A stretch of DNA of 42,634 nucleotides from a virus: the IMG/VR virus record IMGVR_UViG_3300044808_000022, positions 1 through 42,634 of that record. The stretch is one strand, 5' to 3'. A program made the position numbers and the translations under genes. Positions within the stretch are counted from its first letter, which is position 1; every line of letters begins with the position of its first letter. Of the stretch, positions 469-34,201 are shown piece after piece. Below the pieces are notes generated by a model that saw nothing but the letters and a program-made list of their open reading frames with translations, was not told the DNA's origin and ran no database searches.

Positions 469-525
469 GTGCTCATGCTCCTGCTTGTCGTCGCCGACAT
501 CCTCACCGGCATCATCTGGATCTAG
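469..525 (+). CDS. Hydrophobic micropeptide (18 aa)
   Basis: GTG at 469 lies 8 nt after a strong Shine-Dalgarno (GGGAGG, 455-460) and opens an 18-codon frame ending in TAG at 523-525. Nearly the whole peptide is Leu, Val, Ile and Met, so it would be a single membrane-spanning segment. An alternative GTG at 460 adds three residues. The placement between coupled genes with its own ribosome binding site suggests it is translated; function unknown. Confidence 0.4.
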   Translation: MLMLLLVVADILTGIIWI

Positions 526-536
526 GGAGACGCGCC

Positions 537-1094
537 GTTACCACCGTCGTCGCACTCGCCGTCAACGGCGCCGTCCACATGGCCGCCGACACCTGCACCA
601 ACGTGTACGAGCGGCCCATCATCGGCGGCGCCCGCAAGATCCGGCGCATCCCCACCGGCACCGGCCAAGCGCTCCTCGGGTTCTGCGGATCCGGCGGCCT
701 ACCCGACAGCGTCGCCGCGCACCACCGCGTCGAAGCCGAACCCGCGGCCGGCGCCACCGAAGACGACCTGCAAGCGTGGGCATACGCCATCGCCTCAGCC
801 ATCACCGATATCGCACGCAACGGCGGCATGGTCGACGAAGACGGGCACGTCGACAGCCGAGTCCTCCTCGGCTGGAACGGCCGACTGTGGACCCTCACCC
901 ACCACATGGCGATCCCCCACCCCGACGGCATCGCAGCCCTCGGCTCCGGTGAAGGACCCGCCATCGGCGCCCTCGACATCCTCACCGAACTCGGCATGGC
1001 ACCAGCGCAGGCCGTACGTCGAGCCGTCCTCGTCGGCATCCACCGCGACCGCTACTCCGAGGGCCCAGTTCAGGTCGAAGTGTTGGGGGCGTGA
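537..1094 (+). CDS. Proteasome beta-subunit/HslV-like N-terminal-nucleophile peptidase
   Basis: The product matches the 20S beta/HslV fold: N-terminal TTVVAL strand, AAD turn, GGARKIRR loop, a GSG turn near residue 136 and a C-terminal helix plus strand. Counting the first Thr as residue 1, Asp falls at 17 and Lys at 33, the catalytic positions of this family, so it is predicted to be active, probably as a self-compartmentalised ring. The frame has no ATG or GTG upstream of Met14 (579); starting there would delete Thr1. A good Shine-Dalgarno (AGGGAGA, 524-530) stands 6 nt before 537, where the codon is GTT. I therefore place the start at 537 as a non-canonical GTT, or a base error for GTG; CTG at 516 is another option. 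It lies just ahead of the HNH and terminase genes. Fold assignment is from motifs only. Confidence 0.75.
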   Translation, partial: VTTVVALAVNGAVHMAADTCTNVYERPIIGGARKIRRIPTGTGQALLGFCGSGGLPDSVAAHHRVEAEPAAGATEDDLQAWAYAIASAITDIARNGGMVDEDGHVDSRVLLGWNGRLWTLTHHMAIPHPDGIAALGSGEGPAIGALDILTELGMAPAQAVRRAVLVGIHRDRYSEGPVQVEVLGA

Positions 1095-1345
1095 TGCCGG
1101 ACTCCACCCTCGCCGGGGTCGTCACCGCCTTCGGCACCATGTTCACCGCCGTCGCCCTGATCATCACCGCCGTGGCAGGTCTGATCCGCGCCAAGCGCGT
1201 GGAGGCCACGCTCGACGGCGTGCACAAGATCGTCAACCAGCAGCGGACCGACCTGCTCAACTACCAGCGCGCCCTCATCCGCGCGCTGCGCGGGGCAGGC
1301 ATCGACGTACCCGAAGACCAGAGCGTCGACAACACGCAAGACTGA
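1094..1345 (+). CDS. Single-pass membrane protein
   Basis: An 83-residue protein, ATG overlapping the previous stop (TGATG). Residues about 7-29 form one transmembrane helix, followed by a basic turn and a long charged helix with a coiled-coil look. Small membrane proteins of this build often lie beside the HNH/terminase genes of actinophages. Whether it is a structural, lysis-related or superinfection-type protein cannot be told from sequence. Confidence 0.7.
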   Translation: MPDSTLAGVVTAFGTMFTAVALIITAVAGLIRAKRVEATLDGVHKIVNQQRTDLLNYQRALIRALRGAGIDVPEDQSVDNTQD

Positions 1346-1346
1346 C

Positions 1347-1682
1347 ATGCCCGCATCGAAGGTGTGCAAGAAGCCAGGCTGCCCCGCACCAGCCACACAA
1401 CGCGGAGCCTGCGACACCCACGCACGCCAAGACGACCGAGCACGCGGCACACGCCAAGCCCGCGGCTACAACACCGAACACGACCAGCTACGACGCCAAT
1501 GGGCACCACGCGTAGCCACTGGCACCGTGCCATGCGCACGCTGCCACCACGTCATCGGGCACGGCCAACTATGGGACCTCGGCCACCACGACAACGACCA
1601 CACCAAACACCGCGGCCCCGAACACACCAACTGCAACCGGTCAGCCGGCGGACGAGCAGCACACGGACTACCGCCCCGGTGA
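1347..1682 (+). CDS. HNH endonuclease
   Basis: A 111-residue protein with an N-terminal CxxxxC pair, a CARCHH pair in the middle and a DLGHHDNDH ... NCN core, which is the His-Asn-His/beta-beta-alpha-metal nuclease pattern. A gene of this type directly before the terminase pair is a common arrangement in HK97-like siphoviruses; in studied phages the HNH protein acts with the large terminase during cos cutting and packaging. That role is inferred from position. Confidence 0.85.
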   Translation: MPASKVCKKPGCPAPATQRGACDTHARQDDRARGTRQARGYNTEHDQLRRQWAPRVATGTVPCARCHHVIGHGQLWDLGHHDNDHTKHRGPEHTNCNRSAGGRAAHGLPPR

Positions 1683-1841: not shown

Positions 1842-2044
1842 GCCGACGCACGGTACGCCGTGAGAACGGCACACCGCAGCCCGATACACGACACCCACGG
1901 CGGTGACCCCAACCGGGACGAAACGGACAGAGCGGACGTGCCCGAAAGGGTGGGGGATGACCCCTAATGTCCGATTTGTACGGGACCGTCGGGGAGGTGC
2001 CTCGCAGTCCAGACAGCTGAAAGGTCCAGAGGGGGTGACCCAGA
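1842..2044. other. Intergenic region before the terminase genes
   Basis: About 200 bases without a convincing forward gene. They precede the first packaging gene and carry GGGGGTGA at 2032-2039 as the ribosome binding site of the small terminase. A cos site or late promoter would be expected near here in a phage of this design, but I see no clear hexamers or cohesive-end signature. Confidence 0.4.
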
Positions 2045-2479
2045 GTGACGGTTGAGACGCCGGATGGCCTGGGTGACCGGGGCCGGAAGCTGTGGGCTGA
2101 CATCACCGAGCTGCACGAACTGGACCCGGTTCAGGCTGTGACGTTGGTGGAGGCGTGCCGTACGGCGGACCGGCTGGAGCAGTTGGACCAGATCATTGCC
2201 GGCAAGGGTGTTCTCCGGCTGCTGCATTTTCGGCACATGGTGGAGCGGGACTCGGATGATGAGCGTCATCTGGTGATGACGGTGGATGGTGTGCTGTCGG
2301 AGGTGCGGCAGCAGCAGACGGTGTTGAAGCAGCTGTTGGCGGCTCTGCGTCTGCCGGATGGTGTGTCGGGGAAGCGTCCGCAGCAGCGTGGCGGCGCCCG
2401 TGGGGCGTATACGCCGGGTGGGAAGGCCGGGTCTGTGTCGTCTCTGGATCGGGCGCGCGCGGCGAAGTCCGGGGCATAG
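2045..2479 (+). CDS. terS: Terminase small subunit
   Basis: A 144-residue, helix-rich protein that begins with a GLGDRGRKLW segment typical of small terminases of actinophages, followed by a region rich in aspartate, leucine and glutamine and a basic, Gly-rich tail. It recognises phage DNA and feeds it to the large subunit. The GTG start is chosen because it follows GGGGGTGA at good distance. The immediate neighbours (HNH before, large terminase after, 3 nt gap) support the call. Confidence 0.8.
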   Translation: MTVETPDGLGDRGRKLWADITELHELDPVQAVTLVEACRTADRLEQLDQIIAGKGVLRLLHFRHMVERDSDDERHLVMTVDGVLSEVRQQQTVLKQLLAALRLPDGVSGKRPQQRGGARGAYTPGGKAGSVSSLDRARAAKSGA

Positions 2480-2482
2480 TCG

Positions 2483-4075
2483 GTGGCCTGGTCTGGCCCG
2501 CTGTTCGAGGGGCACGTCTGCTCGATCGGGTATGAGGTGCTGGACTGGATCCACGCCTTCGAGTGCCACGGTCCGGGCGATGTGCAGGGCGAGCCACTGG
2601 ACTACGACGATGAGATGCGGGACTTCGTTATCGAGGTGTACCGCATCGACCCGGTGACGGGCCGGCGCCTGTACGACGAAGGCGTGCTGTCGCGGGCCAA
2701 GGGTCGCGCGAAGTCTGAGACCGCGGGCCACATGGGGATCGCTGAGGCGTTCGCGCCGGTGCGGTTCGATGGCTGGGATGCGAACGGGCAGCCGGTCGGG
2801 CGGCCGGTGAAGTCGCCGCTGCTGAAGTGCCTGGCTACCGAGGAGTCGCAGGCGGGTAACACGTTCGAGAACATCGCGTTCATCGCCGGCCAGTGGGGTC
2901 CGGACGTGTTTCCCGAGGTGTACGGCGGTGTGTCGGGGATCCGGCAGTACCAGTCGGCGACTGCGTTGTACCTGCCGCAGGGCGGGGAGATTCGGGCGTG
3001 CACGGCGGGGTCGGCGTCGAAGGATGGCGGGAAAGAGACCTGGGTGTGCGCGGATGAGACGCACCTGTATGTGCTGCGTGAGCTGAAGGCGATGTACGGG
3101 ACGGTTCGCCGGAACCTGGGGAAGCGGAAGCTCGCGGAACCATGGCTGCTGCAGACGACGACGGCGTACCGCCCGGGTGAGCAGTCGATCGCCGAGGAGA
3201 CGTTGACGGCGTGGCGGAAGGGTGAGCTGTCCAAGTCGGTCCTGGTGGATCACCGGGAGGCGAAGGGCCGCATCGATCTGGACGACGAGGCGCACACGCT
3301 GCTGCAGTTGCGGCAGGTGTACGGCGCCGCGTCGGCGTGGATGGATCTGGACCGGATCTACCGGGAGATGCGGGATCCGCGGTCGTGCCCGGATGAGGCG
3401 ACGGCGGCCCGGTACTTCCTGAACCGGCCGATGTCGACGGCGGATGCGTGGATCGCGAAGGATGTGCACGAGCGGCAGACCCGGCATGGCGACGTTGTGG
3501 CGCCCGGTGAGGCCCTCACGGTCGGATTCGACGGGTCCCTGAACGATGACACCACGGTGCTCCGCGGCAGCCGCATGTCGGACGGGTTCTTGTTCCGGCT
3601 GGGTGCGTGGCCGAAGCCGGCCGGCGCGGCGGGAATCGGCTGGGAGGTGCCTCGCAGGGACGTGCTGGCGACAATCCGTGAGGTGTTCGGCCGGTACGAC
3701 GTGGTGCGCGGCTACTTCGATCCGCACGAGTGGCGGTCGGACATCGACGACCTCGCAGACGAGTTCGGCGAGGAACGGGTGTTCAAGTGGGAGACCCGCC
3801 GGGATGTGCAGATGGCGGCGGCGCTGGACCGGTTGCACACCGGTTTGGTGACGGGCGAGGTGTGGCACGACGGCGATCCGTTGGCGGCTGAGCACTACGG
3901 CAACGTGTACGTCCGGATGAAGGGTCCGCATCGGTTGGTCCGCAAAGAGCATCCGCAGTCGGCCCGCAAGATCGACACCGTGGTGGGCGACGCTCTCGCG
4001 CTCGAAGCGCGGGCAGATGCCCTGGCTGCCGGGTGGGGCAAGGAAACCGACCGTCGTGTGATCGTCTTCAGATAG
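2483..4075 (+). CDS. terL: Terminase large subunit
   Basis: A 530-residue packaging motor: N-terminal ATPase with a deviant Walker A loop (SRAKGRAKS, residues 70-78) and a C-terminal RNase-H-like nuclease beginning with a GFDGS strand (Asp350), with acidic residues at the end (VGDALALE). Length is normal for HK97-type terminases. It pumps DNA into the prohead and cuts it. The GTG start follows the small-subunit stop by 3 nt, and the portal gene follows after 9 nt. Confidence 0.93.
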   Translation: MAWSGPLFEGHVCSIGYEVLDWIHAFECHGPGDVQGEPLDYDDEMRDFVIEVYRIDPVTGRRLYDEGVLSRAKGRAKSETAGHMGIAEAFAPVRFDGWDANGQPVGRPVKSPLLKCLATEESQAGNTFENIAFIAGQWGPDVFPEVYGGVSGIRQYQSATALYLPQGGEIRACTAGSASKDGGKETWVCADETHLYVLRELKAMYGTVRRNLGKRKLAEPWLLQTTTAYRPGEQSIAEETLTAWRKGELSKSVLVDHREAKGRIDLDDEAHTLLQLRQVYGAASAWMDLDRIYREMRDPRSCPDEATAARYFLNRPMSTADAWIAKDVHERQTRHGDVVAPGEALTVGFDGSLNDDTTVLRGSRMSDGFLFRLGAWPKPAGAAGIGWEVPRRDVLATIREVFGRYDVVRGYFDPHEWRSDIDDLADEFGEERVFKWETRRDVQMAAALDRLHTGLVTGEVWHDGDPLAAEHYGNVYVRMKGPHRLVRKEHPQSARKIDTVVGDALALEARADALAAGWGKETDRRVIVFR

Positions 4076-4084
4076 GGGGACCTG

Positions 4085-5539
4085 GTGGCCCTGTCTGAGG
4101 AGGAGCTCGACACGTTCCGCCGGCTGGAGACGCGACTCGGGCAGGCCCGGAAGGACCACCTCGATGCCCGCCGCCGCCCGGTGTACGGGCTGGAAACGCT
4201 GGACTCGTACTACGAGGGTCTGCAGCGGGTTCAGCAGCTGGGGATGGCGGTGCCGCCGGAGCTGGAGCAGTTCCTGGTGATCGCGAACTGGTGCCGGACG
4301 TGTCCGGATGCGATTGAGGAGCGGATCGACCTGGAGGGGTTCCGGCTGCCGGGCAGGGAAGAGGCCGACAAGGATCTGTGGCGGATCTGGCAGGAGAACG
4401 AGCTGGACGAGGAGTCTCAGCTCGCGCACCTGGATGCGCTGGTGTTCGGCCGGTCGTACATCTGCGTGGGGTCGGGCGGCAAGGGCCCGGAGTCGGGCGT
4501 GGACGAGGTGGATCGGGATCCGGCGACGCCGTTGGTGACGGTGGAGTCGCCGTTCGAGATGTTCCACGAGTTGGACCCGCGGACCCGCCGGGTGAAGGCC
4601 GCGGTGAAGGTGTACGGGAGTGGCTCGGACAAGCGCGGGACGCTGTACCTGCCGAACGCGACGGTTTGGCTGCGTTGGGGTTCCGGTGAGGCCGGGCGCC
4701 GAGGCTGGGTCGAGGAGGACCGGGACGATCACAACCTGGGGCTTCCTCCGGTCGCTGTGCTGACGAACCGGCCGCGGGTCGCGGACCGGTACGGGGTGTC
4801 TGAGCTCGTGGATGTGATTCCGCTGGCGGATGCGGCGGCGCGGGCGTTGACGAACGCGCAGATCGCGACGGAGGCGTTGGCGGTCCCGCAGCGGTATGTG
4901 CTGGGTGCGACGAAAGCCGACTTCGAGGACCCGGACGGGAATCAGATCCCGGCGTGGGAAGCCCGTATGGGCGCCATCTGGGCACTGATGAACGAGAACG
5001 CGAAGGTCGGGCAGTTTACTGCCGCGGACCTGGCGAACTTCAAGACGATCGTGGATCACTACGCGACTCTGGTGGCGGGGTTGAAGGGTCTTCCGGTCCG
5101 GTATTTCGGGCAGAACACGGCGAACCCGCCGTCGGCGGAGGGGATCCGGGCTGATGAGGCGCGGATCATCAAGACCGCGGAGCGGCGGCACCGTGCGTGG
5201 GGTGGTTCGTGGGAGCTGACGCAGCGGATCGTCCGCCGGTTCATCGACGGTGACTGGGATCCGAGGTTGAAGTCGTTGGAGACGATGTGGCGTGACCCGG
5301 CGACTCCGACGAAGGCTCAGGCTGCGGACTTTGCGGTGAAGTTGACGCAGGGCGACCGTCCGATTCTGCCGATCGTGGCTGCTCAGGAGGAGCTCGGGTA
5401 TGGGCCGATCAAGCGGCAGAAGCTCGCTGATCAGTTCGCCGCGCAGCAGGCTGACCCGCTGATCCAGGGTCTCCTCGCGAAGGTGACGCCGCCGACGCCC
5501 GCGCCGGCCCCGGTTGTTCCGGTTCCGCCTGCTGCCTGA
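4085..5539 (+). CDS. Portal protein (SPP1 gp6-like)
   Basis: A 484-residue protein with the portal signatures: the YYEGLQ segment near the N-terminus, LVFGRSYICVG in the wing region, and a long C-terminal helical part ending in a Pro/Ala-rich tail. Twelve copies would form the ring at the capsid vertex through which DNA passes. The GTG start and the position between large terminase and MuF-like protein are standard. The stop overlaps the next start (TGATGG). Confidence 0.93.
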   Translation: MALSEEELDTFRRLETRLGQARKDHLDARRRPVYGLETLDSYYEGLQRVQQLGMAVPPELEQFLVIANWCRTCPDAIEERIDLEGFRLPGREEADKDLWRIWQENELDEESQLAHLDALVFGRSYICVGSGGKGPESGVDEVDRDPATPLVTVESPFEMFHELDPRTRRVKAAVKVYGSGSDKRGTLYLPNATVWLRWGSGEAGRRGWVEEDRDDHNLGLPPVAVLTNRPRVADRYGVSELVDVIPLADAAARALTNAQIATEALAVPQRYVLGATKADFEDPDGNQIPAWEARMGAIWALMNENAKVGQFTAADLANFKTIVDHYATLVAGLKGLPVRYFGQNTANPPSAEGIRADEARIIKTAERRHRAWGGSWELTQRIVRRFIDGDWDPRLKSLETMWRDPATPTKAQAADFAVKLTQGDRPILPIVAAQEELGYGPIKRQKLADQFAAQQADPLIQGLLAKVTPPTPAPAPVVPVPPAA

Positions 5540-6426
5540 TGGACACTGCCGCGGTTCGGGTGGTGGCCCGTTCGCACTACTTGTCGCAGCAGGCTTTGGC
5601 GGAGTTGGCGCGGCGGCGGGCTGCGGAGTTGTGGCGGTCGTTGGATGCGGCGGATCTGTCGGGGTCGTGGCGTTCGGGTGTGGGTCCGGCGGTGACGCGG
5701 GTGGTGGCGGCGTCGCAGTTCGTGGCGGCGTCGCAGGCGGATCGGTACACGGATGCTGTGCTCGATGCGCAGGGCGCGTCGGGTCCGGCTGACGGGTCGG
5801 TGTCGCCGGGCATATTCGCGGGTGTCGCGTCGGATGGGCGCCCGTTGGAGTCGCTGCTGTATGGCGCGGTGGTGGACACGAAGGACGCGATAGGCGGTGG
5901 GATGCCGGTCCGGGATGCGTTGCGCCGCGGCGCGGGGACGTTGTTGATGTACGTGGGTACGCAGGTGCAGGACGCGGGGCGGGTCGCGGATGGGGTGGCG
6001 GCGTTCGCGCGGCCTCACGTGACTGGCTACTACCGGGTGCTGACGCCGCCTTCGTGTTCCCGTTGCGCGATCTTGGCGGGTCGTCACTACAGGACGAACG
6101 CCGGGTTCCTTCGGCATCCGCGCTGCGACTGCCGGCATGCGCCGGTCGCGGAGGCGGACGACTCGCTGAGGTATGACCCGATGAAGGCTTTCCGTGCCGG
6201 GCAGATCACGGACCTGTCGCGGGCGGAGACGCGGGCGCTGCTGGACGGCGCGGACATGTCGCGGGTGGTGAACGCGCGCCGCGGGATGAGTTCCGCAGGT
6301 GGTCTTACGACGAGCGAGGCGGCGGTCCGTGGTCGCGTGCGACTCACGCCGGAGGGGCTGTACGAGCTCTATCCGGACCGGGGCCAGGCCATCGAGCAGC
6401 TCCGCCGTCACGGCTACCTGCTGTAG
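5539..6426 (+). CDS. MuF-like minor capsid/head morphogenesis protein
   Basis: A 295-residue protein. Its signature is a Cys/His cluster: SCSRC at residues 173-176 followed by HPRCDCRH about 15 residues later, as in Mu F-like proteins of actinophages. The first half is helical and Ala/Arg rich. MuF proteins sit inside the head near the portal and some are carried into the cell; here there is no obvious toxin domain. The gene overlaps the portal stop by one base. Confidence 0.8.
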   Translation: MDTAAVRVVARSHYLSQQALAELARRRAAELWRSLDAADLSGSWRSGVGPAVTRVVAASQFVAASQADRYTDAVLDAQGASGPADGSVSPGIFAGVASDGRPLESLLYGAVVDTKDAIGGGMPVRDALRRGAGTLLMYVGTQVQDAGRVADGVAAFARPHVTGYYRVLTPPSCSRCAILAGRHYRTNAGFLRHPRCDCRHAPVAEADDSLRYDPMKAFRAGQITDLSRAETRALLDGADMSRVVNARRGMSSAGGLTTSEAAVRGRVRLTPEGLYELYPDRGQAIEQLRRHGYLL

Positions 6427-29461: not shown

Positions 29462-29664
29462 CCGAGGCCCTCGCGATCATGGCCCTCGCCGCGATCGCCC
29501 TCTTCTTCGGCCACCGAGGCCGCGGCGTCATCGGCCCCTTCTGCTGGATCCTCGTCGGCGTCATCCTCGTCGGCGGCTCCCTGTCCGCGGCGGCCAGCAA
29601 CTTCGGGAACATCATCGTCACCACGGCGTCCGCGCTCGGCACCTATTTCGCAGGCGTCGCATGA
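29458..29664 (+). CDS. Small membrane protein, two helices (68 aa)
   Basis: Helices at about residues 2-18 and 24-47 with a GHRGRG basic loop between them and a moderately hydrophobic end. ATGA coupling on both sides. As with its neighbour, this fits the small Spd-like proteins of a transfer module, but nothing in the sequence names it. Confidence 0.6.
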   Translation: MTEALAIMALAAIALFFGHRGRGVIGPFCWILVGVILVGGSLSAAASNFGNIIVTTASALGTYFAGVA

Positions 29665-31292
29665 CCGCCCCGACCGAACCGCCGGCCGCGGCCCCTGAGG
29701 CGCCGCGGCCCCGGCCTACTGTGTCCCGGTCGCCGGGCCCGCCGCGTACCAGGCGGCGGGCCATCGCCCTGCCCGTGCTGTTGGCAGGCGGTCTGCTGGC
29801 GTTGGTTGCGTCGCAGGGCGGTTGGCTGCTGCTCCTCGCGGCGGCGGGTGGCACCGCGGCGGTGGGCGGTGGGCTGTGGGTGTCGTCCCGGCGCCGCGCC
29901 CGGCAGCAGACGGGCCGAGGGCGCCAGCAGCAGCGGCCCCGGCGTGCCCAGCGCGGGCCGCGCCAGTTCGGCGGGTTCCCCCGCAGACAGGTGTCGGGGA
30001 TCCGGCACATGGGCAACCCGGGCGGGATGGGTCGCGGTGTCGGCCGGTCTGTGGGACGCGCCGCTGGCCGGGCCGCGGGCGGTGTCGGTACGGCTGGTCG
30101 CCGAGCATCCGGCGCGGGCCGGGCAGCTGCCACGCGCGTCGGCGGGGCGGCTCGACGCGGCAAGCAAGCGGCCGGGTTCGCGGCGGCGTCCGGCCGGAAG
30201 AAGGCCCACGCCGCGGCGCTGCGCCTCCCGGGCCGGTCGGGCACCGGACGGACAGCGAAGACCCCGAGCTCGACGAAGCCCAGCCGCTCGAGCTCCGGTC
30301 GCCGCATGCCGTTCACCGGTGGCGGCCGGAAGTCGAGCTCGCCCGGGACCGGGAACCGGTCGGGTCGGTCGTCGCGTGGCGGCGGGTTCCGGATCCCCGG
30401 CATGTCAGGCCGGTCGGGTCGGTCGGGTGGCGGGCGGATGTTCGGCGGCAAGTCGTCACCCCGCCGCGGTCTGCCAGGCACCCGGACTGGTCGTGTCGCC
30501 GCGGCGGCCCGGCGCCTCACCGGCCGGACACGCCCCGGCACCGGTGTCACCCCCGGAACTGGCCGGACACCCGGACACCGCATCCGACGCGTCCGAGGTG
30601 TCCTCGGCCGGACCGGACGCCGACTCACCGGCCGCCCCCTACGGACACGGACACGTCCCAAGGTGACACCCGGCAAGGCGACCGTGACACCGACCCTGAC
30701 ACGCCGCGCCGCACGCCGCGCCCTGACAGCCACCCGGACAGGCGCCACGCGGACCGGACGCGGCACCCGGGCACTCGCCCGCCGCCTCGCCCACCGACTG
30801 TGGAACTTCCCCGCCGCCGCCGTCACCGCCATGACAGGACCCACCTACCCCCGAACCCCGCCCGGCACCACCACACCTGTCACCACCCCCGCCGCCACTG
30901 CCACGCCGGCGCCGAAACTCGCCACCGCTGGAGGACCCGCCATGTCACACCCGATCATCAGCCCGTCCGTCGAAGCCGCAGGCGGCATCGGCGGCTACGA
31001 CTTCCGCCACCTGAGCGACATCCGGAACTTCACCAACGCCGCCCCCGAGTCGATCAGTAGCCTCGCGCAGGCGTACAACGCGGTCGCGAACCGACTGGCC
31101 GACACTCCCGCCTCCGGCTCCGTCGCAGAGGTGTACTCCCAGATCGCCGCGGGGCTCGCCACGCTCGCGGACGCCGCCGCCGAAGCCCCCGCCCTGCTAC
31201 AGACCGCCAACCAGGAGGACTTCAACCGGATCGACAACCCTCGCCCGCAGGAGACGATGGCCGACCACGGCACCAACACCGCAGGGATGTGA
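29661..31292 (+). CDS. Basic Spd-like protein with disordered Arg/Gly/Ser region
   Basis: A 543-residue protein in three parts: two hydrophobic helices at about 34-75, a very basic, low-complexity Arg/Gly/Ser/Thr-rich region from 76 to 400, and a compact helical C-terminal domain from about 425 (ISPSVEAAGGIGGYDF, then ISSLAQAYNAVANRLADTP). The C-terminal domain resembles the end domain of large Spd proteins next to traB in actinomycete elements. The basic region may bind DNA or the cell wall. ATG overlaps the previous stop. Confidence 0.65.
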   Translation: MTAPTEPPAAAPEAPRPRPTVSRSPGPPRTRRRAIALPVLLAGGLLALVASQGGWLLLLAAAGGTAAVGGGLWVSSRRRARQQTGRGRQQQRPRRAQRGPRQFGGFPRRQVSGIRHMGNPGGMGRGVGRSVGRAAGRAAGGVGTAGRRASGAGRAAATRVGGAARRGKQAAGFAAASGRKKAHAAALRLPGRSGTGRTAKTPSSTKPSRSSSGRRMPFTGGGRKSSSPGTGNRSGRSSRGGGFRIPGMSGRSGRSGGGRMFGGKSSPRRGLPGTRTGRVAAAARRLTGRTRPGTGVTPGTGRTPGHRIRRVRGVLGRTGRRLTGRPLRTRTRPKVTPGKATVTPTLTRRAARRALTATRTGATRTGRGTRALARRLAHRLWNFPAAAVTAMTGPTYPRTPPGTTTPVTTPAATATPAPKLATAGGPAMSHPIISPSVEAAGGIGGYDFRHLSDIRNFTNAAPESISSLAQAYNAVANRLADTPASGSVAEVYSQIAAGLATLADAAAEAPALLQTANQEDFNRIDNPRPQETMADHGTNTAGM

Positions 31293-31323: not shown

Positions 31324-33453
31324 ATGACGCAGGTCAGGGAGACCGAGCGACAGCGGCAGCAGATAGTTGCCGAAGCGACCGCCGATGAATGGCCCTACGA
31401 GGCCTGGTCGAACCCCGTCAGCGCGATGCTCGGCACGTACATCCTCGGTGTCCTCCTGTACATGGCAGGGGTGTCACCGTGGTGGCCGCTGCTCGCCGGG
31501 CTCGCTGTCACTGTCACATGGGTCAGCTGCACCGTGTACCTCGGCACCAAAGACCTCGGCGTCGCCTACACGGCGGCAGTGTCCCTGTCAGTGACAGGGT
31601 GGCTGACATGGGCCGCCGGACACCCGACACTCGACATCCGGAACTGGCCTGTCACCCGCGACTCGTGGTGGATCCTCGGCACCGCCACCGCTGTCCTCGC
31701 CGTCGTGTGGATCGTCCTCATCCGGCAGCGCGCGAACGCCGAAGCTGTCGTGTCCGAATATCTTCGCCGCCGCACCATCTCCGGTGGCATGTACGAGGAG
31801 GCATGCCGCCAGGCAGGCATCGAGCAGTGGTGCTACGACTCCGAGGTGGAAACCCCCGGAGGCCGGGACGTCACCATGGAGATCCTGCATGGTGGCACCC
31901 CCTACGACGACGCCCTGAACAGCCTCCGGAGGCTCGAAGTCAACCTCCGCGCCCGGTACACCGGAGCCGTGAAACTTGAGCTGATCGACCCTACCCACGT
32001 GGTCATCCACCAGAGTTGGGAGAACATGCTCGAGCCCACCATCCCGTTGCCGCCGGACACCGGGCCGCTGGACATCCTGCAGCCCATGGACGTGGGTCGG
32101 CATGAGGACGGCACCGCAGCGTTGCGGCTGTTCACGCAACGTTCGGAGCTGACGATCGGGCAGCGCGGCGGTGGCAAGAGCAACTACATGAACATCGAGC
32201 TCGCGCGGCTCGCGCGGACAACGAACGTCCTCATCTGGATGGTGTGCTTCAAGGAAGGTGCCACGCTACGGCCGTGGCTTGCGCCGTATGCCGCGGGGCA
32301 GGCAGCGCGGCCGGTGATCGACTGGGCCGGGACCAGCCAGGCTGACCTGATCGAAATGCTTCGCGCATTGGACCGCATCGGGAAGGCCCGAGCCGGGCGC
32401 CGCTTCGACGACAACATCGTCCCCACCCCGGTGACGCCCGCGATCGTCCTGTTTGTCGACGAGGCACCCGACGTCCTCTCGAACCTGAACAGCCCCGTCC
32501 GGGAACTGCTGGTCCACGTGATCCGCAAACACCGTTCCGAGGCCCTTGACCTGCGGCTTTACACGCAGCGGAACACGATGAGCATGCTCGGCGCTAAGGC
32601 CCGGGACCTGTCCAGCCAGATGGGCATCATCAACGTCTTCAAAGTCGACAACCCCGGCGAGATGTTCAACTCCCTCGGAGTCAACAAGGCCGCGACCGGG
32701 GGAATCGACCCGTCGAAGTTCGTCGACGCCGGGACGATGCTGACGATCGCGCCCGACTGCAGGCCGATGCCGACGAAGGTGTACCGGGTCGAGAACGCGC
32801 AGATCCCCGCCCTCGCTGCGATGGCTGCTTCGTACCGGCCGCAGCTCGAGGAGGTGGATGCGCAGGCGGCGGGCCCGGCGTACGCACGTCGCTGGCAGGG
32901 CACGGACATCCGCGCCCAGCTCCTCGCCGCGGCGCGGATGGTGGGCGGCGAGTTCCAGCCCAGCCACGTACCCGCGATGGGCCACGCGCAGGTCACCAGT
33001 GCGTCCGCAGCGGAACCATCCCCCGAGGGGCGGCCTGCGCTGCGAGTGGTCCCGCAGGTTCCGCATCTGGACCTCACCAGCAGTGAGCCCATCGCCACGC
33101 AGCTCGGTATGCCGGACATCCGGAAGATCTTGATCCGGCAGCACGGCGCGGTGGAGGGTGAACGGCTGTACGACCGCCAGCAGGGGATCCTGCTGCTGCA
33201 GGCCATGCGGAAGATCCTCGGTGCTGCGCCCGATCGTGCTCTGCCGACGCGCGAGCTGCTCGACCATCTCGCGCTCACCGCGAAGTGGCAGACGCTCACC
33301 CCGGAGCGACTCGCCGAACTGGTCCGGCCGCACGGCGTGACACCCGGCCAGATGGGCGCCGGCCGGTGGGGTTCGAACGCCCGCGGATACCGGCTCGCAC
33401 ACGTCGAGGAGGCACTGCAGCGGCCTGCCGAGGACTCCCCGGCCCCGGCGTAA
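31324..33453 (+). CDS. TraB/FtsK-type DNA translocase
   Basis: A 709-residue protein: about four transmembrane helices in residues 34-133, then a motor domain with Walker A GQRGGGKS (279-286) and Walker B IVLFVDEA (Asp379, Glu380), and a C-terminal domain (about 600-700) that looks like a winged helix. Length and order match TraB of Streptomyces conjugative plasmids and AICEs, which moves double-stranded DNA between hyphae as a hexamer and binds clt repeats through its winged helix. GGAGGG precedes the ATG. Spd-like genes before it and a repeat array after it support transfer rather than chromosome segregation. Confidence 0.85.
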   Translation: MTQVRETERQRQQIVAEATADEWPYEAWSNPVSAMLGTYILGVLLYMAGVSPWWPLLAGLAVTVTWVSCTVYLGTKDLGVAYTAAVSLSVTGWLTWAAGHPTLDIRNWPVTRDSWWILGTATAVLAVVWIVLIRQRANAEAVVSEYLRRRTISGGMYEEACRQAGIEQWCYDSEVETPGGRDVTMEILHGGTPYDDALNSLRRLEVNLRARYTGAVKLELIDPTHVVIHQSWENMLEPTIPLPPDTGPLDILQPMDVGRHEDGTAALRLFTQRSELTIGQRGGGKSNYMNIELARLARTTNVLIWMVCFKEGATLRPWLAPYAAGQAARPVIDWAGTSQADLIEMLRALDRIGKARAGRRFDDNIVPTPVTPAIVLFVDEAPDVLSNLNSPVRELLVHVIRKHRSEALDLRLYTQRNTMSMLGAKARDLSSQMGIINVFKVDNPGEMFNSLGVNKAATGGIDPSKFVDAGTMLTIAPDCRPMPTKVYRVENAQIPALAAMAASYRPQLEEVDAQAAGPAYARRWQGTDIRAQLLAAARMVGGEFQPSHVPAMGHAQVTSASAAEPSPEGRPALRVVPQVPHLDLTSSEPIATQLGMPDIRKILIRQHGAVEGERLYDRQQGILLLQAMRKILGAAPDRALPTRELLDHLALTAKWQTLTPERLAELVRPHGVTPGQMGAGRWGSNARGYRLAHVEEALQRPAEDSPAPA

Positions 33454-33598: not shown

Positions 33599-34201
33599 GT
33601 GGGCAGGAGACGACGTGGAACGGACTGGCGGGCAGTGCTGATCCTGGTGGGTCTGCTGGCCGTGTACTGGGGTCTGTTGCAGGTGTACCGGTGGGTGCTC
33701 GGGCACCGGATGGCAGCGGCGGGGATCGCCGCGGTGGTGGTGGTGGTGGTGGTGGTGGTCGGCGTGTTCGCGTTGCGGGTGTGGTGGCGCCGTCGTCGCG
33801 GCCGGAGGGTGGCGGTTCGGCGTCTGGCCTCGTTGGGTGACGGGACGGGGAAGGCCGCGGAGGAGCTGGTCGCCGAATTGCTGCGTCGGGATGGTTGCAC
33901 CGGTGTGGAGGTGCGCGGCGGGGGCGGCGATTTGGGTGCGGATGTGACGGGGGTGTTGCCGGGTGGTGGCCGGGTTGTGGTGCAGGTGAAGGACTACGCG
34001 AAGCCGATCGGCTCCCCGGCGTTGCAGACGTTCAATGGGACGTGTTGGTCGGAGCATGGGGCGGATGTGGCGGTGTTCGTGACGACGTCCAGCTTCACCA
34101 GCGCCGCGGCGGCGTTCGCTGGCCGGTCGGGTATCGAGTTGGTGGATGGGGCTGGGTTGGCGGCGTGGGTGGCTGGGGAGTCGATGGGCTCGGCAGCGTG
34201 A
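33599..34201 (+). CDS. Membrane-anchored Mrr-type restriction endonuclease-like protein
   Basis: A 200-residue protein. After a basic start, helices at 12-31 and 39-61 anchor it, with a very pure Val run in the second. The rest is a PD-(D/E)xK fold of the Mrr_cat type: GTGKAAEELVAELL helix, GDLGADV with Asp115, and VVVQVKDY with Gln129 and Lys131. Mrr enzymes cut modified DNA; a membrane-bound form could act on DNA at the transfer pore or against incoming DNA. GAGGAAGGGG precedes the GTG. Activity is predicted, not shown. Confidence 0.75.
   Translation: MGRRRRGTDWRAVLILVGLLAVYWGLLQVYRWVLGHRMAAAGIAAVVVVVVVVVGVFALRVWWRRRRGRRVAVRRLASLGDGTGKAAEELVAELLRRDGCTGVEVRGGGGDLGADVTGVLPGGGRVVVQVKDYAKPIGSPALQTFNGTCWSEHGADVAVFVTTSSFTSAAAAFAGRSGIELVDGAGLAAWVAGESMGSAA

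Follow-up and report, generated by a model that had tools for sequence, protein, structure and literature searches.

A putative proteasome-type peptidase encoded beside the packaging genes of an actinophage, with GTT at its start-codon position

Phage-encoded HslV-like peptidases are already known. Two kinds of phage proteasome homologue, PPH and AAH, were described by Fuchs et al. 2021 (PMC8665760). PPH has about 140 residues and is without helix H2; AAH belongs to group I, is HslV-like, and is found in phages and Actinobacteria, with no actinophage AAH reported. The phage peptidases of phrog_1040, which include gp81 of Arthrobacter phage Hum25, gp77 of Arthrobacter phage Pitbull, Microbacterium phage Pumpernickel gp135, and the enzyme of Vibrio phage 166E36-1, have Thr directly after the start codon and belong to the HslV-like fold family. 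HslV-like genes akin to an actinobacterial protein (L093:1504-2037) occur in 183 phage records, including those of T5-like Salmonella and Escherichia phages, and are usually annotated as hypothetical.

The stretch of DNA analysed here, referred to as the window, comes from an actinophage of soil bacteria and is a linear IMG/VR virus record of 42,634 bases. Near its left end lies a gene for a protein of the same general kind. Like the phrog_1040 peptidases, the window protein is phage-encoded, has Thr directly after the start position, and falls in the HslV-like fold family, but it is only 22-29% identical to the proteins of Hum25, Pitbull, Pumpernickel, and the Vibrio phage, which occupy separate clades of our tree. 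It has Thr1, Asp17, Lys33, and the fold in common with HslV (ClpQ), but is about 23% identical to E. coli HslV and lies far below the cut-offs of the HslV equivalog models (about 24 bits against 137 and 157.75; for TIGR03692, 24.2 against 157.75). BPH, the beta-proteobacterial proteasome homologue, is the closest solved fold and, as the window clade, is without a propeptide, but it is bacterial rather than phage-borne and about 20% identical to the window protein. AAH resembles the window protein in being HslV-like and of about the same length. Membership in PPH is rejected on length and helix H2: the window protein has 184 residues, and its model has two helix pairs (54-61/74-94 and 138-150/155-168). 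The window protein and its relatives are a further group beside the HslV-like genes of actinophages already in the records.

The best explanation as a whole, which we regard as probable, is that the window carries an actinophage gene for a Thr1-dependent Ntn ring peptidase, that the gene starts at 537, that the GTT found there is a changed base, and that the gene is accessory.

Homology, predicted fold, and relatives

Taken singly, the window sequence gives modest evidence of homology. The window protein matches the profile of phrog_1040 ("peptidase HslV family") with an E value of 2.5e-9, and the same profile matches two of its relatives, L155 (9.5e-9) and L156 (1.5e-12). HslV is the best sequence match of the window protein in the PDB by both phmmer and profile search. 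Thermotoga HslV is matched by phmmer at E 8e-4, and HslV 1m4y is matched at E 9.7e-9 when a profile of six relatives is searched against the PDB. Pfam PF00227 is matched by three of six clade members at E <= 0.01; the window protein misses its gathering score (19.5 versus 22.4 bits), which is a shortfall in score and not a structural contradiction.

An AlphaFold2 model of the window protein, predicted with six relatives as input, has a pLDDT of 88.6 and a pTM of 0.87. Foldseek matches the model to HslV and BPH in the PDB with E values of about 1e-10. In VIA-align comparisons, which cover nearly the whole model, BPH (5ovs) ranks first, with Z 18.7 and 2.7 Å over 170 residues, followed by HslV (Z about 18), the Mycobacterium proteasome beta subunit (17.5), and Anbu (16.9). 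The comparison with HslV, Anbu, and PrcB suggested in the preliminary description, extended here to BPH, finds the four-layer Ntn fold in the model (Z about 17-18.7), and at the level of prediction the fold of the window protein is settled. Homology and predicted fold together support the original proposal that this phage encodes an Ntn peptidase of the proteasome/HslV type.

The frame read from 540 (TTVVALAVNGAVHMAADTCTNVYERPIIGGARKIRR..., translated from the window) contains the catalytic residues and the Gly-Ser-Gly turn within 540-1091, as had been noticed from the letters alone (Table 1). The spacing of Thr1, Asp17, and Lys33 is present as claimed, but it is insignificant by itself, because it turns up twice among the 55,831 positions of the window's six frames. 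A chance origin of the motif is excluded by the homology (phrog_1040 and the HslV profile match) and by the fold. Residues D170 and S173 have the spacing of proteasome Asp166 and Ser169 and are probably their counterparts. The catalytic set is conserved in ten clade members, which argues that selection maintains the clade as an active peptidase. The gene itself is real, but its extent, earlier given as 524-1094, is best given as 537-1094.

Table 1 Features of the peptidase locus in the window
Feature	Position	Strand	Remarks
Upstream ORF, hydrophobic, 18 codons	469..525	+	MLMLLLVVADILTGIIWI; very strong Shine-Dalgarno; stop 11 nt before GTT
AGGGAGA, Shine-Dalgarno-like	524..530	+	6 nt before GTT; duplex energy -7.9 kcal/mol
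GTT at start-codon position	537..539	+	directly precedes the Thr codon
HslV/proteasome-like Ntn peptidase gene	537..1094	+	184 codons after the start, plus stop; start position is GTT
Thr1 codon	540..542	+	putative catalytic nucleophile; invariant in 10/10 clade members
Asp17 codon	588..590	+	invariant in 10/10 clade members
Lys33 codon	636..638	+	invariant in 10/10 clade members
G135-S136-G137	942..950	+	counterpart of proteasome Gly128-Ser129-Gly130; G135 and G137 invariant, S136 in 9/10
D170-x-x-S173	1047..1058	+	D170 in 9/10, S173 in 8/10 (Thr in one more)
Small protein gene	1091..1345	+	start overlaps peptidase stop
HNH endonuclease	1347..1682	+	phrog_1808, E 1.1e-10
cos-like joint	1983..2030		aligns to the joined genome ends of Arthrobacter phage Hum25
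Terminase small subunit (TerS)	2045..2479	+	phrog_1496, E 2.5e-26
Terminase large subunit (TerL)	2483..4075	+	phrog_9, E 4.2e-57
'Head maturation protease'	5539-6426		phrog_1522

The ten clade members are the window and nine distinct relatives, of which eight are on viral contigs and one is on an actinobacterial MAG contig (L088, Frankiales); L157 has the same sequence there as L156. The first relative, L025, was found near a related terminase, and the remaining members were found stepwise after it. A single-protein scan of viral contigs with the window protein found no relative, and plasmids gave no match to it. The window protein is 41-60% identical to the nine relatives. In a tree of 22 rows, the window clade forms one group with support of 100/98 and a long stem, apart from the other sequences covered: HslV, PrcB, a presumed AAH set, and a set with Hum25, Pumpernickel, and DSL-LC01. 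The presumed AAH proteins of actinobacterial genomes (L093, L094, and L096) cluster with other phage proteins rather than with the window clade. Matches to phrog_1040 in actinobacterial genomes are mostly proteasome beta subunits, and three of the best (L112-L114) do not help to place the clade. By its sequence, the window protein is a member of a distinct, well-supported clade of phage proteasome homologues.

The start of the coding region

From the in-frame stop at 327 to ATG 579, a frame scan finds no ATG, GTG, or TTG. The frame has no standard start other than ATG 579, and a protein begun there would lose Thr1, as the preliminary description had it. Third-position GC is 0.92 in 540-578 and 0.85 in 540-1091, similar to the values in TerL and portal, and the part of the frame before it (330-536) is not in coding phase, indicating that the coding onset precedes ATG 579. 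All nine relatives start directly at Thr1 and none starts at the internal Met; the codon aligned with 537-539 is GTG in seven (L025, L085, L086, L088, L155, L156, and L159) and ATG in two (L087 and L158). In L155 alone, an extra in-frame GTG is located three codons ahead of the proximal one. The more distant phage proteins also have a start codon directly before Thr1 (TTG in Hum25, GTG in Pitbull, and ATG in Pumpernickel). Therefore, given the nine relatives and the coding phase from 540, the start position is 537, in agreement with the earlier suggestion of a start there that exposes Thr1 after removal of Met.

Translation from ATG 579 would give a truncated, non-catalytic protein without Thr1 and strand 1. 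Apart from being the sole standard start, this codon has little in its favour: its Shine-Dalgarno is very weak (-1.7 kcal/mol), the stretch 540-578 that it would leave out is fully in coding phase and holds conserved residues, and the fold would lack its first strand. We consider such a start highly improbable and, on coding phase, Shine-Dalgarno, and relatives, reject it. A start further upstream, for example at CTG 516, followed by autocatalytic removal of a short propeptide to free Thr1, in the manner of many proteasome beta subunits, is the least probable of the readings weighed here. CTG 516 is in frame, is among the table-11 starts, and lies in a frame that is open upstream; however, that upstream stretch is out of coding phase, the Shine-Dalgarno is again weak (-1.7 kcal/mol), and the relatives are without a propeptide, L155 with its additional GTG being the single qualification. 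Group I homologues other than HslV have no propeptides (Fuchs et al. 2021, PMC8665760), which also counts against CTG 516. It is rejected on coding phase, Shine-Dalgarno, and relatives.

With the start placed at 537, the GTT codon itself has to be accounted for. The preliminary description had left a choice between a non-canonical start and one wrong base, and proposed an alignment of homologues at 539; the codons of the nine relatives favour a changed base and disfavour a non-canonical start. The preferred reading of GTT is a GTG altered at one base, whether by error or by a recent or strain-level mutation. From the sequence comparison, one G-to-T change at 539 is most likely, introduced either in sequencing or assembly or by recent mutation within the strain. 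Oxidation in sequencing libraries commonly produces G-to-T artefacts. A scan of viral contigs with the start-region pattern, N being allowed at 539, found no other copy of this phage. We place an error or mutation well ahead of a working GTT start, although error, mutation, and real use of GTT are not directly separable. As a real mutation, GTT would lower or abolish expression of the peptidase.

Genuine but weak initiation at GTT, by re-initiation after ORF 469-525 with the help of AGGGAGA, would mean low or regulated peptidase output. The Shine-Dalgarno before GTT, described earlier as good, is real, correctly spaced, and better than that before ATG 579, but its strength is moderate, since its energy is reached by 11% of all window positions. 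The leader ORF has one of the strongest Shine-Dalgarno sequences computed (-16.2 kcal/mol), and its stop is close enough to GTT that it could allow re-initiation, which is the only point giving a working GTT start some plausibility. The undisrupted frame and the intact catalytic residues are also on its side. However, GTT is used by none of the nine relatives, nor by Hum25 or Pitbull, GUU is absent from the table-11 starts, and a literature search of partial coverage gave no bacterial GUU start. We therefore regard initiation at GTT as quite improbable; if true, a bacterial virus would here make natural, regulated use of GUU as a start.

For the preferred reading, a start at 537 with a changed base, the relatives suggest how the enzyme would mature. 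Translation in them would begin at the GTG or ATG that immediately precedes the Thr codon. Host deformylase and methionine aminopeptidase would then remove the initiator Met and expose Thr1 as the nucleophile, which would act together with Asp17, Lys33, and probably Ser136, Asp170, and Ser173. Judging from the predicted fold, the protein most likely self-assembles into a small ring peptidase of the HslV/BPH kind. During infection, it would trim or clear unfolded proteins or peptides, and no phage unfoldase is recognised as its partner. No HslU or ClpX was recognised among the main window ORFs scanned, and an unfoldase partner from the host is possible.

Locus and possible role

The gene order of the window is that of a siphophage: HNH, TerS, TerL, portal, phrog_1522 'head maturation protease', scaffold, decoration, major capsid protein, tape measure, endolysin, and integrase. 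A 543-residue protein without a PHROG or Pfam match (29661-31292, +) adjoins an FtsK/SpoIIIE-like protein (31324-33453), and in the right arm a protein with a strong Mrr-type restriction endonuclease domain is encoded at 33599-34201 (+; PF04471, E 2.6e-24).

The isolated phage nearest to the window by packaging-gene DNA is Hum25 (42,695 bases). In Hum25 and Pitbull, a 'protease' gene, small ORFs, and HNH are at the right genome end and TerS is at the left end, so that the peptidase has the same genomic place as in the window (peptidase, small ORFs, HNH, genome ends, TerS, TerL). The joined ends of Hum25 align at 1983-2030, indicating that the window contig was assembled across joined genome ends. 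Since this joint falls between peptidase and TerS, the peptidase gene would lie at the far right end of the virion DNA and touch the packaging genes only when the ends join. Hum25 and the window are alike enough in their packaging genes to align by DNA, but Hum25 gp81 (L151 3017-3544), a strong phrog_1040 member (2.5e-27), is about 23% identical to the window protein and belongs to another tree clade. One locus therefore holds two different peptidase subfamilies.

The peptidase gene is less than 3.2 kb from the TerL gene and on the same strand in all ten clade loci. It precedes TerL by 212-3158 nt in nine of them, and in L088 directly follows TerL, between TerL and portal. The TerL proteins of the ten loci belong to two families, phrog_9 and phrog_38 (by PHROGs; for L025, from its 71% identity with the window TerL). 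The earlier remark that the peptidase adjoins packaging genes is not borne out as worded: in the window the two are adjacent only across the cos-like joint. Among 80 fetched close terminase relatives, many with several kilobases upstream, only L025 has the peptidase gene, although some of these contigs stop too close to TerL for its presence to be judged. The peptidase gene is therefore accessory: it is not universal among close relatives, but where it occurs, it invariably neighbours the packaging module. In Pumpernickel and Vibrio phage 166E36-1, unlike the window, the HslV-like gene is located elsewhere, and in the other phages examined such genes are among thymidylate synthase, DHFR, MazG, PhoH, or small hypothetical genes.

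The conserved locus position favours a late task tied to particle assembly, which is our leading, still tentative, guess for the role of the peptidase. Action on a host or defence protein is possible and ranks behind it, and general peptide clearance takes the rest. The narrower role proposed at first, in which the peptidase serves prohead maturation by cleaving the scaffold or capsid protein, is doubtful. The closeness to TerL in all ten loci, and the position between TerL and portal in L088, are consistent with it. However, the gene is missing from nearly all close terminase relatives, it would lie across the joint at the far end of the virion DNA, and HslV-like enzymes elsewhere in phages sit among nucleotide-metabolism genes. 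The phrog_1522 'head maturation protease' already encoded in the window also counts against it. This protease and the absence of the peptidase gene from close terminase relatives weaken a role in particle assembly more generally, too. The sporadic presence and the position at the joint weaken an essential prohead-maturation role in particular, and we consider it unlikely.

One changed base can hide both a start codon and a catalytic residue, and gene callers would report a protein without Thr1 from the window. The clade adds an actinophage subfamily to the phage proteasome-like peptidases. Its place beside the packaging genes in ten of ten loci gives a handle on function, and the counterparts in the isolated phages Hum25 and Pitbull make knock-outs feasible.
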